A program made the position numbers and the translations under genes. Below, piece after piece: positions 23,602-39,502 of a DNA stretch of 39,660 nt. Numbering within the stretch: position 1 is the stretch's first letter; each line of letters begins with the position of its first letter. A model generated the notes under the pieces. It did no database searches, was not told where the DNA came from, and was given only the letters and a program-made list of their open reading frames with translations. Source of the DNA: Nitrospirota bacterium (GTDB lineage Bacteria; Nitrospirota; UBA9217); assembly GCA_020052615.1 (NCBI GenBank), contig JAGVOT010000130.1, positions 1 to 39,660 on the forward strand, read 5' to 3'.

Positions 23602-23615
23602 CGGGAGGCAGCTCG

Positions 23616-23679
23616 ACGCGGAGACGCGGGGACGCGGGGACACGGGGACGCGGAGACACGGGGACGCGGAGACACGGGG
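23616..23679. repeat. Octamer tandem repeat, eight units (copy 3, best preserved)
   Basis: Eight gap-free units of eight bases, pattern A-C-R-C-G-G-R-G, drawn from three variants: ACGCGGAG (3), ACGCGGGG (2), ACACGGGG (3). Related units occur at 5790 and 11294. The five GGGG tracts could form a G-quadruplex on the plus strand. It lies just after glgP and before the hybrid kinase; the rest of the 258-base spacer shows no gene. Confidence 0.9.
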
Positions 23680-23859
23680 AAAAACCAGCTGAGGGCTTTT
23701 CGATACTGCGCACGGATTTGTCCCAGGTTTGTGATTCGAGGAACGAACGCATTCCCCGTAGCATTGCTGTGGGGTTAGCGAGCGATCGGGATAAGATAAT
23801 TTCCCTGAGGATCAAAGATTCCCTACAGCCTGAGAGCTTCAGCGATAAGGAACACTTCC

Positions 23860-33451: not shown

Positions 33452-33486
33452 ATTGCGGATTGCGGATTTCGGACCGCGGATTGGGA
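33452..33486. repeat. Heptamer tandem repeat, five units, at the lolA 5' end
   Basis: Units ATTGCGG (twice), ATTTCGG, ACCGCGG and ATTGGGA run without gaps, starting five bases after the ftsK stop. They lie inside the longest lolA frame and would encode its first residues if an upstream ATG were used. Confidence 0.85.
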
Positions 33487-34149
33487 AAAGCCCGTCGATC
33501 TGTTGCAACGATCGGCATCGTGTTGACCGTTGCCGTGGCCTCGGTCTCGTACGCCCTGGATTCCTCGCCTGCCGTCACCGCGCTGGCGACCCCTCCTGAC
33601 GCCGTCGCAGCCATCGAGGCGCACTATCGGGAGCTCGTGGACCTGACCGCGAAGGTCACGCAGAAAAACTACCTCAAGTCCGTGGACAAGACCCAGACAT
33701 TCGACGGGAACCTGTCCATCAAAAGACCCGGCATGCTTCGGCTCGACTACATGAACGGCCAGACCATTGTCATCGACGGCAGGGAAGCGTGGTTCTATTC
33801 TCAGAAGAGCAGCCAGGCGATCCGCCGCACCTTCAAGGACTTCGAGCAGGCCAACATTCCTGTCGCCTTCCTGCTCGGCGCCGGCACCATCCGGGAGGAC
33901 TTCGAGGTGTCCCTGCCCAAGCCGGACCAGCCCCTGATGCTGGACCTGGTCCCGAAGCGGAAGGGGGCGGCCATGAAAAAACTGCGGCTCCTGTCGGAGA
34001 AAACCGGCAGGATAACCCAGATGATCGTCTTCGACCGGTCGGGCAACACGTCGGACATCCGGTTCTTTGAAGTGAAGGAAGGCGTGGGCCTCGACGATCA
34101 GCGGTTCCGTTTCAAGGTCCCGAAGGGGACGGAAGTGATAGATCAGTGA
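33481..34149 (+). CDS. lolA: Outer-membrane lipoprotein carrier protein LolA
   Basis: Periplasmic chaperone that ferries lipoproteins from LolCDE to the outer membrane. After a signal peptide (RRSVATIGIVLTVAVASVSYA), the mature part has AIEAHYRELVDLTAKVTQK, FDGNLSIKRPGMLRLDYMNG, IVIDGREAWFYSQKSSQ, FLLGAGTI and the C-terminal strand set, in family order. Length is about 222 residues. The start is unclear: an ATG at 33436 overlaps ftsK and one at 33448 also reads through the heptamer array. The TTG at 33481 begins right where the array ends and gives a clean signal peptide; I chose it on that ground. The stop falls inside the next heptamer array. Confidence 0.9.
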   Translation: MGKARRSVATIGIVLTVAVASVSYALDSSPAVTALATPPDAVAAIEAHYRELVDLTAKVTQKNYLKSVDKTQTFDGNLSIKRPGMLRLDYMNGQTIVIDGREAWFYSQKSSQAIRRTFKDFEQANIPVAFLLGAGTIREDFEVSLPKPDQPLMLDLVPKRKGAAMKKLRLLSEKTGRITQMIVFDRSGNTSDIRFFEVKEGVGLDDQRFRFKVPKGTEVIDQ

Positions 34150-34215
34150 TTAGTCATCAGTAATTGAGCGATCAGGGACACTGCCTGAATGACCCAATGA
34201 CTGATTACCCAATTA
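34141..34215. repeat. Inverted pair of heptamer arrays between lolA and yajQ
   Basis: Left arm 34141-34175: GATCAGT, GATTAGT, CATCAGT, AATTGAG, CGATCAG. Right arm 34188-34215: AATGACC, CAATGAC, TGATTAC, CCAATTA, which is related to the left arm in the opposite orientation. The lolA stop codon (34147-34149) lies in the first arm. The yajQ ribosome-binding site begins just after the second. Confidence 0.75.
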
Positions 34216-34230
34216 CCACGGAGGCAAGCT

Positions 34231-34857: not shown

Positions 34858-36087
34858 ATGAGCCTTGTCGGCAGGCTGGAAGACCTTGCGCTTCCCGATA
34901 TCTTCCAGATCATCAGCCTCAGCAAGAAGACGGGCACCCTCGTGGTCCGGAGCCGCAAAGGGACGGGGATGGTCGTCTTCAAAAGCGGCCAGGTGATCCA
35001 GGCCGGCAGCGACAGTATCCGCGATTCGCTCGGGAACATCCTCGTTTCGCAGGGAATGGTCGACCAGGCGGACCTTGCCGCGGCCCTTGCCATGCAGAAG
35101 GCCGCACCCGACAAACCCCTCGGCATGATCCTTGCGGAAACGGGGGCGACGACCTCCAAGATCATCGAAGATGTCGTGCGCCAGCAGATCGAGGAGATCA
35201 TTTACGACCTTCTCGCCTGGGAGGAAGGGTTCTTTAATTTCGAGCTCGGCGAGATCGCTCCGAAGGACAAGATCGAGATCGACACCCATGACCTGTTGTT
35301 GAAGTCCGGTCTGAGCGCCGAATATCTGCTCATGGAGGGGACGCGGATCCTTGATGAACGGCGCAAGGACCAGACCAGGAAGGCGCCTCCCTCCTCCTCT
35401 GCCCCAAAGGCCTCTCCGGCGGCACCGAAGGCCGCCCCAACGGCGAAACGATCAGCTCCTGAATCCCTTCCCCCACAGAAGCCCGCACCGGTCACGCGCG
35501 CGAGCTACGAGCCCGCCAAGGCGGAGTTCCGCGCCAGGATCGAGACGGAAGATTCGTCGAAGCAGCTCACGACCCTCAAGTCGATGTTCGATGAGCTGCG
35601 GTTCCCCACGGCAACAGCAGAAGTGACGCTTCTTATCCTCCGGTATGCCAGCGAGGTGGTGAATCGCGCCATTCTCTTCATGGCGAAAAAGGACGAGGTG
35701 CGCGGCCTCGGCCAGTTCGGCATCGAGCTGACAAGCGGCAAATCTCCCGACCAGGTGGTGAGGAACATCCGCATCCCCCTGAGCGAACCATCGCTGTTCC
35801 GGAACGTCATCGAGAGCAAACGCACCTACCTGGGGCCCCTTGAGGCAAGCGAGCAGAACAGCTACTTCGTGAACGAAGCAGGAGGGATGAAGCCTGACGC
35901 GGTGCTCGCCATACCGCTGATCGTGGACGGAAAGATCGCCCTCATCGTGTACGGCGACAATCTCCCCGACCAGAAGCCCATCAGGGGGCTGGAGACCCTC
36001 GAGATCTTCATGAACCAGGCCGGCATGGCCCTGGAGAAGGCGCTGCTCGAACGGAAACTGGCAGAGCTCCAGAAGGAGAAAAAATGA
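34858..36087 (+). CDS. PATAN (DUF4388)-GAF-like signalling protein
   Basis: A 409-residue soluble protein. Residues 1-165 are a PATAN/DUF4388 domain (LVGRLEDLALPDIFQIISLSKKTGTLVVRS, GQVIQAGSDSIRDSLGNILVSQG, VVRQQIEEIIYDLLAWEEGFFNFE). A Pro/Ala-rich linker spans about 170-215. Residues 225-400 look like a GAF domain (VVNRAILFMAKKDEVRGLGQFGIEL, FVNEAGGMKPDAVLAIPLIVDGKIALIVYGDN), ending in a coiled coil. PATAN proteins are thought to mediate protein-protein contacts in motility, polarity and surface-sensing systems. Its stop overlaps the receiver gene start (ATGA), so the two are coupled. It may be the adapter or sensor of the CheA-like pathway; that is inferred from context. Confidence 0.9.
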   Translation: MSLVGRLEDLALPDIFQIISLSKKTGTLVVRSRKGTGMVVFKSGQVIQAGSDSIRDSLGNILVSQGMVDQADLAAALAMQKAAPDKPLGMILAETGATTSKIIEDVVRQQIEEIIYDLLAWEEGFFNFELGEIAPKDKIEIDTHDLLLKSGLSAEYLLMEGTRILDERRKDQTRKAPPSSSAPKASPAAPKAAPTAKRSAPESLPPQKPAPVTRASYEPAKAEFRARIETEDSSKQLTTLKSMFDELRFPTATAEVTLLILRYASEVVNRAILFMAKKDEVRGLGQFGIELTSGKSPDQVVRNIRIPLSEPSLFRNVIESKRTYLGPLEASEQNSYFVNEAGGMKPDAVLAIPLIVDGKIALIVYGDNLPDQKPIRGLETLEIFMNQAGMALEKALLERKLAELQKEKK

Positions 36088-36455
36088 AGAACGTCCTGAT
36101 CGTCGAGGATTCCAAGGCCATCCGTTCGCTGATCCGCATAGCCTTGGAAGAGGCAGGCGGTTTTTTCACCTCCGAAGCGAACAACGGGTTCGAGGCGCTC
36201 AAGACGCTGCCGAGCCGCAAATTCGACCTCATCATCACCGACATCAACATGCCGGACATCAACGGCCTGGAGCTCATCGGGTTCGTGAAGTCCAATCAGT
36301 CGTATCGGGACATCCCGCTCATCATCGTAAGCACCGAGAAGAGCGAAGAGGACAAAAAGCGGGGCATGGCGCTGGGGGCCATGGGCTACATCGTGAAACC
36401 CTTCCGAAAGGAAGATCTCATGGCGCTGGTGAACAAGGCGGTGGGAGGGAAATGA
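36084..36455 (+). CDS. CheY-like response regulator
   Basis: A stand-alone receiver of 123 residues with acidic Glu8/Asp9, phospho-acceptor Asp53 (IITDINMPDINGLEL), Ser83 in place of the commoner Thr, and Lys105 (YIVKPF). The end RKEDLMALVNKAVG is typical of chemotaxis-type CheY. It overlaps the PATAN-GAF gene by four bases and precedes the CheA-like kinase after a hairpin-forming heptamer spacer, so it is the likely phosphoryl acceptor of that kinase. Confidence 0.95.
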   Translation: MKNVLIVEDSKAIRSLIRIALEEAGGFFTSEANNGFEALKTLPSRKFDLIITDINMPDINGLELIGFVKSNQSYRDIPLIIVSTEKSEEDKKRGMALGAMGYIVKPFRKEDLMALVNKAVGGK

Positions 36456-36456
36456 C

Positions 36457-36534
36457 AGTGCGGAGTGCGGAGTGCGAAGTAAAGATTTACGTCGTTGTTT
36501 TTCACTCCGCACTTCGCACTCCGCACTCCGCACT
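36457..36534. repeat. Heptamer arrays forming a perfect 24-bp inverted repeat
   Basis: The left arm 36457-36480 is three AGTGCGG-type units (the third is AGTGCGA) plus AGT. The right side 36503-36534 carries CCGCACT-type units in opposite orientation. Bases 36511-36534 are the exact reverse complement of 36457-36480, including the variant unit. The loop is 30 bases. It fills the spacer between the cheY-like and cheA-like genes of one operon. Confidence 0.92.
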
Positions 36535-36542
36535 CGAAACAT

Positions 36543-38525
36543 ATGAAGACTGATCGTCCCATACAGGAATTCCTCGCAGAGGCGGAGGACATTCTGGAGT
36601 CCGCAAGCAGGAGCCTTCTTACCCTGGAGGACCAGCAGGCTGCCGGACAGGTCGACCCCGACCTTGTCAACGGCCTGTTTCGTTCGATCCACTCGTTCAA
36701 GGGCCTCGCCGGGATGTTCGGCCTCAAGACGCCTGCCGACCTGTCGCACAAGCTCGAATTCCTTCTCGACGAGATCCGGCTTGGCAAGGTGGGTCTGGGC
36801 GGCGAGACCCTGAGCGCCCTGTCGGATGTTCTGGGACTTCTGGCGCGGCTCGTACAGCAGAGCGGCGCGGGGCAGCCCTTCGAGGACATTTCCGGGGCGA
36901 CCGACCGCATCGACCGCATCCTTGCCGCGAAGTCCTTAGGTGGAGAGCAGTCGCTTCTCTCGCGGGTCGACATTGACCTGTCCGTGCTCCAGGTCCTTAC
37001 GGAGTACGAGGAGCACCGGCTGAAAGAGACTATCCGGGAGCGGAAGAACCTTTTCCTGGTCAAGGCGTCATTCACCTTCGCCGAGTTCGAAAGCGGCATC
37101 CGTGCCTTGACGGAAACGCTGAAGCAGCACGGCGAGATCATCTGCACCCTGCCGACGGCGTCAGCCGGCGGGGAGGGCATCGGGTTTACCATCATGGTCG
37201 GCACCGCCAAGGGGCGCGATGTCCTCGCATCATCGATCAACCTGCCGAACGTCTCTCTCGAACTGGTGCCGCGCACCGATGAAAGCTGCGCCCCGGAAGC
37301 GCGGGCGGAGGTAACCACCCTCAAGAGCATCAGCAACACGGTGCGCGTGGACATCCACAAGCTGGACAATTTGATGAGCACCGTGGGCGAGCTCCATATC
37401 ATCAAGGGCGAGATCGGCCGCATCGCCGCCGGTCTGCGCGGCCTGCAGGGTTTTACCGGCGACGCCGTCAACCTGTACAAGGCCCACAAGAACCTGGAGC
37501 GGCGGCTCAATGAGATCCAGGAGGGCATCCTCGACGTCCGGATGGTCCCAATCGGCCAGATCTTCACGCGCCTTGCCCAGGTGGTCCGGAACTACGCGCG
37601 GGAGGCGGGCAAGGAGATCGACCTCGAGATCCAGGGAGAAGAGACCGAGCTTGACAAGCTCATGGTGGAGGACCTTGCCGATCCGCTCATGCACCTCATC
37701 AGGAACGCCATTGACCATGGTATCGACCCGCCGGAGGTGCGGAAGGCGAAGGGCAAATCCGAACGCGGTATCGTGCGGCTCACCGCAGTGCCCAAGGGGA
37801 ACCATGTCATGATCACCGTGGAGGACGACGGACGGGGGATCGATCTGCCGGCGGTCCTGTCCAAGGCCCGGGAAAAGGGCCTTCTGGAAGGCGAGCTTGA
37901 CGTCGAGCACAATCGAAAAGAGATCCTGGACCTCATCTTCCTGCCGGGCTTCACCACCAGCGAAACGGTGACGGAAATCTCGGGCCGCGGCGTCGGCATG
38001 GACGTGGTGAAGAGGAACGTGTCCCGGCTTTCAGGCATGATCGACATCGAGACCGAAGCGGGCGCGGGCACGCTCTTCACCATTACGCTTCCCATCACGC
38101 TGGCCATCTTCAAGGCGCTGATCATCGAGACCAGCGGGCGCAGGTTCGCGGTTCCGCTGGGCTCGGTCCTCGAGATCCTGCGGGTGGCTCCGGACCAGAT
38201 CGAGACCATCGAGTCACGCGAGGTGATGGCCATTCGCGATGACACGGTGCCGCTCCTCAGGCTCACCGACGCCTTCGATCTGCCGAAGGGGGAGCAGCAG
38301 GAAAAGCTGTTCGTCATTCTCGTGGGGATCGCCGAGCGAAGGCTCGGCCTCATCGTGGACAGGCTTCGCGGCCAGCAGGAGATCGTCATCAAACCGCTCG
38401 GCAGCCGTCTTGCCGATACCCCGGGGATCTCGGGCGCAACGGAACTGGGCGACAAGATCGTCGTGCTCGTGCTGGATGTGGAGTCGCTCATTGAAGGGGC
38501 GATGAGAAAGACGATAGCAAGATGA
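36543..38525 (+). CDS. CheA-like histidine kinase
   Basis: A 660-residue chemotaxis-type kinase. The HPt domain (1-115) has phospho-His50 in FRSIHSFKGLAGMFG. A P2-like region with FTFAEFESGIRALTETLKQHGEI follows (about 150-240). The dimerisation domain starts near 262 (TVRVDIHKLDNLMSTVGELHIIKGEI). The ATPase has LIRNAIDHGID (Asn388), VEDDGRGIDL and FTTSETVTEISGRGVGMDVVK, and the CheW-like domain fills the last 130 residues (LIIETSGRRFAVPLGSVLEIL). The ATG at 36543 lacks a Shine-Dalgarno sequence; the frame extends upstream only through the repeat. No methyl-accepting receptor is present, so this may be an alternative-function system (pili, gliding or regulation). Confidence 0.95.
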   Translation: MKTDRPIQEFLAEAEDILESASRSLLTLEDQQAAGQVDPDLVNGLFRSIHSFKGLAGMFGLKTPADLSHKLEFLLDEIRLGKVGLGGETLSALSDVLGLLARLVQQSGAGQPFEDISGATDRIDRILAAKSLGGEQSLLSRVDIDLSVLQVLTEYEEHRLKETIRERKNLFLVKASFTFAEFESGIRALTETLKQHGEIICTLPTASAGGEGIGFTIMVGTAKGRDVLASSINLPNVSLELVPRTDESCAPEARAEVTTLKSISNTVRVDIHKLDNLMSTVGELHIIKGEIGRIAAGLRGLQGFTGDAVNLYKAHKNLERRLNEIQEGILDVRMVPIGQIFTRLAQVVRNYAREAGKEIDLEIQGEETELDKLMVEDLADPLMHLIRNAIDHGIDPPEVRKAKGKSERGIVRLTAVPKGNHVMITVEDDGRGIDLPAVLSKAREKGLLEGELDVEHNRKEILDLIFLPGFTTSETVTEISGRGVGMDVVKRNVSRLSGMIDIETEAGAGTLFTITLPITLAIFKALIIETSGRRFAVPLGSVLEILRVAPDQIETIESREVMAIRDDTVPLLRLTDAFDLPKGEQQEKLFVILVGIAERRLGLIVDRLRGQQEIVIKPLGSRLADTPGISGATELGDKIVVLVLDVESLIEGAMRKTIAR

Positions 38526-38529
38526 AAGA

Positions 38530-38602
38530 GGACAGACATCAGACAACAGACACGGCCCGCTGCTTAGGTCTGACCTCTGATCGTCTGTCATCTGCGGTCT
38601 GA
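38530..38602. repeat. Inverted pair of heptamer arrays between cheA-like and exeA-like genes
   Basis: Left arm 38530-38550: GGACAGA, CATCAGA, CAACAGA. Right arm 38568-38602: GTCTGAC, CTCTGAT, CGTCTGT, CATCTGC, GGTCTGA, which is the CAGA-type unit in the opposite orientation. It fills the spacer, and the next ATG (38607) follows with no Shine-Dalgarno sequence. Confidence 0.82.
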
Positions 38603-38606
38603 TCTT

Positions 38607-39401
38607 ATGTATGAAGAATTCTACGGGCTGAGGGAAAAGCCGTTCACCAAGACGCCGGACCCGCGGTTCCTGTACCAGGGCCGGAAGCATGCCGAGGCGC
38701 TTGCGCGACTCCAGCTTGCGGTGGAGGACCAGGACATCGTGCTCCTGACCGGCGACATCGGCTGCGGGAAGACGACGCTGTCCCGCGCGCTGATCGACGG
38801 GTTCGACAGCCGGTACCACCCGGCGCTGATCATCAACCCCAGGCTGTCGCCGATCCAGCTGCTCCAGACCGTGGCGCTCCGCCTTGGCATCGATGAAGAG
38901 CACAGCCGGCACGGTATACTCGAGGGGATCAATGCGAAGCTCTATGAGCTGTATGAGGAAGGTAAGCGGACGGTGCTCATCATCGACGAGGCCCAGCTGA
39001 TCCCGGGCAAGGAAACCTTCGAGGAGATCCGGCTTCTCACGAACTTCCAGCTCGACGACCGGAACCTCCTGGCCGTCGTGCTGATCGGCCAGACCGAGCT
39101 GAAGGCGCGGCTGGCGAAGCGGCCCTATCGCGCGCTGCGGCAGCGCATCGGGATGCAGTACCATCTCGGTCCGCTGGACGAACAGGAGACGGCCGAGTAT
39201 GTGGCGCACCGCCTCCATGTCGCCGGAAGGGAGGCGCCGCTGTTCGATGCCGAGGCGCACGCCGCCCTTCACTATTATAGCGACGGCATCCCGCGGCTCA
39301 TCAATGTACTGGCCGGCAATGCCCTCCTCGAGGGTTTCGGCCGCGATGCGGCGATCATTACGGGCGAGATCGTCGAGAACGTGGCGGAGGAATTGAAATA
39401 G
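38607..39401 (+). CDS. ExeA/GspA-like AAA ATPase
   Basis: A 264-residue AAA ATPase of the ExeA/GspA group. The N-terminus FYGLREKPFTKTPDPRFLYQGRKHAEALARL is diagnostic. Walker A GDIGCGKTT has Lys55; Walker B is VLIIDEAQLI (Asp127, Glu128); sensor parts are VVLIGQTELKARL and RALRQRIGMQYHLGPLDEQE. ExeA helps build type II secretion secretins, but relatives occur in many other settings. Unlike ExeA, there is no membrane helix or peptidoglycan-binding domain after the ATPase. It lies among chemosensory-type genes, possibly powering a polar or envelope machine; that link is inference. Confidence 0.93.
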   Translation: MYEEFYGLREKPFTKTPDPRFLYQGRKHAEALARLQLAVEDQDIVLLTGDIGCGKTTLSRALIDGFDSRYHPALIINPRLSPIQLLQTVALRLGIDEEHSRHGILEGINAKLYELYEEGKRTVLIIDEAQLIPGKETFEEIRLLTNFQLDDRNLLAVVLIGQTELKARLAKRPYRALRQRIGMQYHLGPLDEQETAEYVAHRLHVAGREAPLFDAEAHAALHYYSDGIPRLINVLAGNALLEGFGRDAAIITGEIVENVAEELK

Positions 39402-39422
39402 ACAACGTTCTTTGAACGTTGT
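39402..39422. repeat. Perfect 9-bp hairpin after the ExeA-like gene
   Basis: ACAACGTTC (39402-39410) and GAACGTTGT (39414-39422) enclose TTT, starting right after the stop codon. No T run follows, so it is not a typical terminator. Confidence 0.6.
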
Positions 39423-39460: not shown

Positions 39461-39488
39461 TGTGCAGTCTGCAGTCTGCAATTTTCAA
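39461..39488. repeat. Heptamer tandem repeat before the last gene
   Basis: Units TGTGCAG, TCTGCAG and TCTGCAA, then a degenerate TTTTCAA. Weaker heptamer phasing may extend left to about 39435. The last gene begins at its right edge. Confidence 0.7.
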
Positions 39489-39502
39489 TGGAGCGAAGCG
39501 AC

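Follow-up and report, generated by a model that had tools for sequence, protein, structure and literature searches.

An inverted heptamer repeat between cheY and cheA belongs to a dispersed class of tandem-unit hairpins in a Nitrospirota genome

Inverted repeats built of tandem seven-nucleotide units have so far been reported piecemeal, from Xanthomonas, Nostoc, Geobacter and Beggiatoaceae, where regulatory roles have been guessed at. The nearest described elements are the GGGAATC repeats of Xanthomonas, intergenic tandem heptamers present at about 180 sites per genome with some 70 close pairs that are always convergent, which are kept between the same genes with variable sequence and have a counterpart, GGGGA(C/T)T, in Nostoc (PMC4692102). 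Replacement has its closest parallel in the P6b stem of the tRNA-Leu(UAA) intron of Nostoc, which consists of complementary 7-nt repeats of class I (TDNGATT) or class II (NNTGAGT) and has repeatedly been replaced as a whole by another repeat class (PMC4476775). In Geobacter metallireducens, paired "global regulator sites" and elements of four heptanucleotides have been interpreted as protein-binding sites or regulatory RNA (PMC2700814), and marine Beggiatoaceae carry intergenic arrays of TAACTGA, which are direct except for one inverted case and stand mostly in forward orientation upstream of starts (PMC4679880). Perfect arms with mirrored variants are likewise produced by quasipalindrome or template-switch mutation, which is a mutational mechanism and not a repeat family and which the accessible parts of these sources do not describe for dispersed tandem-unit hairpins of one genome (PMC8794818; PMC7202029).

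The window analysed here is a stretch of 39,660 nucleotides (contig JAGVOT010000130.1) from a 3.99-Mb genome of a Nitrospirota family (GCA_020052615.1), with relatives that include a Nitrospiria bacterium from Hainich groundwater and several Nitrospirae MAGs. On its forward strand it encodes a single-domain CheY-like response regulator (36084..36455, Pfam Response_reg 1.5e-28, stop TGA at 36453-36455), a CheA-like kinase (36543..38525, Pfam Hpt, H-kinase_dim, HATPase_c and CheW) and, as the third gene of the operon compared, an AAA_22 ATPase (38607..39401, Pfam AAA_22 1.8e-21), an order retained in nine of 11 genomes compared and cut off in the remaining two. Nearly all of the 87 nt between the stop of cheY and the start of cheA are occupied by a hairpin, the arms of which, at 36457-36480 (AGTGCGGAGTGCGGAGTGCGAAGT) and 36511-36534 (ACTTCGCACTCCGCACTCCGCACT), are exact 24-nt reverse complements, in agreement with the original prediction. 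The match ends at 36456/36535 (C/C) on the outside and at 36481/36510 (A/C) on the inside, and it is the longest perfect inverted repeat of the window at gaps of up to 100 nt, 30 codon-block shuffles reaching at most 15 nt. The purine- and G-rich 5′ arm starts 1 nt past the cheY stop and is a period-7 tandem array (AGTGCGG twice, then AGTGCGA and a truncated AGT); the pyrimidine- and C-rich 3′ arm lies within a longer array of 4.7 units (36503-36535), and since this array exceeds the arm, other pairing registers are possible. The 30-nt loop between them (36481..36510) has no other copy in the genome, and the 60 places at which the repeat gives BLAST matches are all accounted for by its arms. 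The predicted RNA fold of the spacer has a free energy of -49.5 kcal/mol, compared to -20.4 ± 3.0 for shuffled sequences (z -9.9), so that the very stable mRNA hairpin that had been proposed is borne out as a prediction.

The start of cheA at ATG 36543, 8 nt past the 3′ arm, is backed by relatives, in which conservation sets in at residue 1 or 2, and, as had been noted before, lacks a Shine-Dalgarno-like motif. It is unlikely that the 3′ arm is translated as an N-terminal extension of CheA, for which the frame is open from TTG 36495, because the conserved N-terminus starts at this ATG. The variant unit AGTGCGA is indeed mirrored in both arms of the heptamer structure, as originally described. 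Its mirroring is nevertheless weaker evidence against independent slippage than was claimed, because AGTGCGA-type units are common (roughly 22% of the AGT-type units of the genome) and the 5′ arms of two other hairpins outscore the window's own 5′ arm against the window's 3′ array. That one arm represents an assembly duplication is unlikely, since an independently assembled MAG of the same genus, G001, has paired arrays at the same place.

Several known kinds of element were considered and rejected. No intrinsic terminator was found at 36457-36535 on either strand, the stem being followed by CGAAACAT and not by a T run. REP or BIME elements would carry a fixed tetranucleotide tag at the foot, which is absent here, and the flanks, as judged by eye, vary from copy to copy, as do the units. 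A MITE was discarded on the grounds that genome matches cover the arms only, the loops are unique and no target duplication was noticed in alignments of orthologous spacers. No Rfam family matched above its gathering score, and the sub-threshold matches were to microRNA precursor models only, as a long perfect hairpin can give. G-quadruplex formation was dismissed as a general cause because many units of the class described below are devoid of G runs; the AGTGCGG unit itself contains GG only, with two GG runs in the 5′ arm and no GGG run or G-quadruplex potential.

The cheY-cheA repeat is one member of a genome-wide, dispersed hairpin class and is not specific to this pair of genes. With up to three mismatches allowed, a 21-mer of the array has 130 matches in the genome as opposed to 8 for the reversed control, and 305 kb, comprising the window and stretches chosen around such matches, contained 94 AGTGCGG-type arrays versus 5 in a codon-shuffled control. 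Close neighbours of the AGTGCGG family in these 305 kb form 20 inverted pairs with the G-rich array first and the C-rich array second, and none in the opposite order. Of the family members sampled, about half have the AGTGCGG array, which is hardly found elsewhere in the phylum. A search of the fetched loci that made no assumption about the unit yielded 45 distinct inverted pairs, whose tandem units have periods of 7, 8 and 9 nt (examples are CAGACAN, AAGGTAGG, CACGGAGA, CGCAAAGNN, CACGAATNN and AATTGTA); the first arm was purine-rich in 42 and G-rich in the other three (ATTGCGG type), and the reverse order did not occur among the 45. Most AGTGCGG-type pairs were ascertained by that very pattern, which, the window apart, does not apply to the frequency and polarity figures from an unbiased 440-kb sample of the same genome that includes the window: here an inverted score of 12 or more was obtained for 17 of the 147 spacers between 50 and 260 nt long, against 0.65 expected (11.6% vs 0.4%), and 16 of these are purine-first, none is pyrimidine-first and one is equal. 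A few of the 17 may be A-/T-tract terminators (e.g., L151:11248-11318), which have the same polarity. The commonest intergenic tandem period is 7, and across all spacers the mean lag-7 autocorrelation shows almost no excess, from which we conclude that the arrays are restricted to a minority of spacers.

With regard to genomic context, 38 of the 45 inverted pairs lie between co-directional genes (base rate for spacers 247/284), others are found between convergent and between divergent genes, and the arms often abut stop and start codons. Genes beside such hairpins have a Shine-Dalgarno-like motif in 18 of 28 cases compared to 62% for other genes, and a missing Shine-Dalgarno sequence was therefore rejected as part of the hairpin design. 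All genome-wide figures derive from genome searches and from about 0.7 Mb of stretches of this genome, in which genes were called by a simple home-made codon model. Arrays of the nine-nucleotide unit CACGAATNN occur as inverted pairs at L161:7874-8058 and L049:2930-3022. An ATTGCGG pair present in both this genome (L030:2371-2571) and G001 (L097:784-991) encloses a 136-nt loop that, unlike other loops, is highly identical across the two species and may hold a promoter or small RNA.

The spacers following cheY, cheA and the AAA gene were then compared within the family, the first in 11 genomes and the other two in nine. Between cheY and cheA, two species have a strong hairpin, four a weak one or one made of another unit, and five none. 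The two with the strong hairpin are the host of the window (G000) and its congener G001, which both have AGTGCGG pairs with loops that differ in length and sequence, the predicted hairpin of G001 reaching -63.4 kcal/mol (z -10.6). G004 has an octamer pair (AGGATTA-type) and weaker or different repeats are present in G002, G011 and G013, the hairpins of G002 and G004 being weak and built of other units; no excess RNA structure was seen at this spacer in G003, G005, G007, G008 and G010 (z -1.6 to +1.2). Depending on the species, the next two operon spacers bear CAGACAN, ACAGTAG, AATTGTA or GCAAAAT pairs. In the window, the cheA-AAA spacer (38526-38606) is filled by a CAGACAN pair with its 5′ arm at 38527..38551 (score 14.5) and a 3′ arm of pyrimidine-rich TCTGANN-type units at 38568..38593, 13 nt short of the AAA ATPase start codon (ATG, 38607); CAGACAN is also found there in G001, and other units in G002, G005 and G008. 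The spacer after the AAA gene contains an array of TGCAGTC (39463..39489), where relatives have paired AATTGTA- or GCAAAAT-type heptamers.

The comparison with G001 was extended to 30 orthologous spacers (the two che-operon spacers and 28 further pairs, with flanks about 79-96% identical), of which 27 still bear such repeats. Repeat types, assigned by eye from the alignments, were retained in 11 spacers, exchanged for another unit in both arms in 14 and partial in two, and in three the repeats were lost. Seven of the 14 switches are from AGTGCGG to ATTGCGG, a direction that is ascertained, as the loci were picked by AGTGCGG. The remaining ones change the unit wholly, including its period, from an 8-mer to a 7-mer at L028:1432, from a 9-mer to a 7-mer at L053:781 and from a 7-mer to a 9-mer at L040:349; at L049:2930, CACGAATNN in this genome corresponds to CACAGAGNN in both arms of G001. 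Cassettes of retained type usually align (local score above 35 in 7 of 11), and switched cassettes taken as a whole never score above 26.5. An ordinary spacer of the same stretch, that between yajQ and a GAF gene, is 85% identical to G001. Misassembly is a poor explanation of the switching because the two genomes are independent MAGs. Since AGTGCGG and ATTGCGG differ by a single base, switches between them could reflect a genome-wide concerted change instead of replacement.

The arms of these hairpins are not independent; some process copies, converts or replaces both together. Among 26 AGTGCGG/ATTGCGG-type hairpins, an arm matches its own partner with a score of 12.0 compared to 9.07 ± 0.91 for the partners of other hairpins (p = 0.001), and at the orthologous spacers of the family, arms pair better within than across species (permutation p < 5e-5, 0.02 and < 5e-5 for the three operon spacers). 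Between this genome and G001, the mean own-arm score is 18.3 versus 13.5 across species (Wilcoxon p = 8e-5; loci were taken as independent in these tests). The assertion that the arms do not arise independently was thus supported, and pairing is retained while the sequence changes.

The original prediction went further, in that the hairpin was suggested as something that could set the kinase-to-regulator ratio. As a regulator dedicated to this locus it would block or tune the translation of cheA or protect the 3′ end of cheY, as stem-loops do in selective RNA processing and stabilisation (SRPS); intergenic stem-loops between co-transcribed genes set operon stoichiometry in Clostridium cellulolyticum (PMC4423207), the predicted folds are strong both here and in G001, and cheA has no Shine-Dalgarno motif. 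But the same class of hairpin occupies unrelated spacers, about 12% of those sampled, as well as the next spacer of the operon with another unit, Shine-Dalgarno-like motifs are not depleted beside it, and five relatives do without excess structure while G002 and G004 have only weak hairpins of other units at the site. This lack of conservation at the locus argues against a dedicated cheA/cheY switch; a role special to the che operon is not supported, and we regard it as very unlikely. By analogy, a strong hairpin between co-transcribed genes could nonetheless alter decay or reinitiation. Slightly less likely still is a generic selection, under which any purine-first hairpin would be kept in operon spacers irrespective of sequence, be it for mRNA stabilisation, for hiding Rho sites or for the stop-start proximity needed in reinitiation. 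It would account for pairing being maintained through sequence change and for arms abutting stop and start codons, and with the purine arm first, the pyrimidine arm would be masked during its synthesis. Yet co-directional spacers hold no more pairs than their base rate predicts, pairs occur between convergent and divergent genes too, and many spacers have no such pair at all.

Both arms, and usually the loop as well, switch at the same slot between congeners, and this would follow if wholes of arm, loop and arm were moved or exchanged between slots by a dedicated enzyme or by recombination with foreign DNA. In Nostoc, the heptamer hairpin within the trnL intron has likewise been inferred to undergo whole-region replacement (PMC4476775), and members of the family encode Y1 (RAYT-like) transposases. 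Two PF01797 matches were found in this genome, at G000:C16:607-930 and G000:C76:135816-136136; about 2 kb separate the second from an AGTGCGG array (C76:137905). However, the loops are unique, so the hairpins do not descend as copies from a single element; at the aligned boundaries of orthologous spacers, neither a common terminal tag nor a target duplication was noticed; and Y1_Tnp counts in the family do not track the arrays (two genes and 99 matches in G000, four genes and one match in G008). Such mobility appears unlikely, if less so than the two preceding accounts, and we give similarly little credence to a stronger form in which complete cassettes are replaced as units by other repeat types through an undescribed exchange or copying system at dozens of loci.

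A by-product of DNA copying is more likely than a private cheY-cheA switch, and we favour, with a probability of somewhat below 0.6, an inverted tandem-unit hairpin of the dispersed class that arose through slippage and fold-back template switching and owes its continued pairing to the same processes. Members of the class share one layout, in which two complementary arrays, each short and made of 7-, 8- or 9-nt units, are separated by a unique loop of anything from a few to about 150 nt. They lie between genes in this Nitrospirota family, and on either strand the purine- or G-rich arm always comes first. A purine-rich tandem array might spread from site to site through recombination of like arrays and grow by slippage; during replication, the nascent purine-rich strand would then fold back and be copied in an intrastrand template switch, giving rise to a pyrimidine arm behind it. 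The outcome would be an exact mirror, variant units included, with a fixed polarity that is the same on both strands. Further template switches could hold the arms alike, or the whole hairpin might be lost and its slot occupied by a new hairpin of another unit. In the cell, the hairpin would be transcribed with the operon and stand between cheY and cheA, where it would at most modulate mRNA decay, processing or reinitiation. A stem-evolution analysis provides a precedent, in which template switching makes and repairs perfect stems, intrastrand switching corrects by the 5′ base and leaves a base-pair asymmetry, and this directionality of copying is proposed (PMC8794818). The purine-first rule fits fold-back copying, but selection would leave it too, for example if Rho were drawn to a pyrimidine arm that lay exposed until its complement had been synthesised. 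The recurrence of identical units at many loci is more than template switching can account for by itself, and so are changes of period at one spacer (8 to 7, 9 to 7 and 7 to 9); a dispersal or replacement step is needed in addition, with cassette exchange or inter-array recombination as the alternative or additional step.

The Nitrospirota hairpins are the same kind of element as the heptamer repeats of Xanthomonas and Nostoc. With the former they share tandem 7-nt units in several copies, mostly intergenic and at many sites per genome, and close pairs with the G-rich arm first (20 to none in the AGTGCGG family, and 45 pairs when all units are counted). They differ in that Xanthomonas has one unit with GGG runs and G-quadruplex potential, whereas here many units with periods of 7 to 9 occur and the arms switch together. 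As in Nostoc P6b, complementary 7-nt repeats flank both sides and the whole stem is replaced, but P6b is one site in a group I intron and the present hairpins are found in dozens of ordinary intergenic spacers of one genome. The elements of Geobacter metallireducens are also tandem hepta- or octanucleotides in opposite-strand pairs at variable distance, some of them intergenic; their units are different, and the accessible part of that account does not describe turnover at orthologs (PMC2700814). The TAACTGA arrays of Beggiatoaceae are intergenic heptamers too, but direct, unlike the inverted pairs seen here. In the open-access literature we found only the Nostoc trnL case as an earlier description of co-switching cassettes, and did not find described the combination of multiple units under one polarity rule with arm co-switching at many loci between congeners. 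These two features, co-switching and fixed polarity, are the surprising ones: a single genome displays one general rule over unrelated units of 7-9 nt, with the purine-rich arm first and arms that change jointly. The comparison between congeners captures such hairpins in the midst of replacement, so that the origin of these repeats and the upkeep of their pairing become testable by sequencing close strains. It also cautions against taking each hairpin of this kind as a gene-specific regulator.

Other repeats in the window deserve mention. An 8-nt tandem array of eight units (GACGCGGA/GACACGGG) with no obvious inverted partner follows a gene end at 23615-23680, and a single array of ATTGCGG, the sister unit of AGTGCGG, was detected as a tandem array at the ftsK-lolA junction (33452..33487, forward strand). 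The lolA-yajQ spacer (34150-34230) resembles a decayed slot for such hairpins, its ortholog in G001 containing CAGACAN-type heptamers in inverted order. Right past the stop of the AAA gene, a short perfect hairpin at 39402-39422 (ACAACGTTC, TTT, GAACGTTGT) differs in G001 in the loop and the last base.
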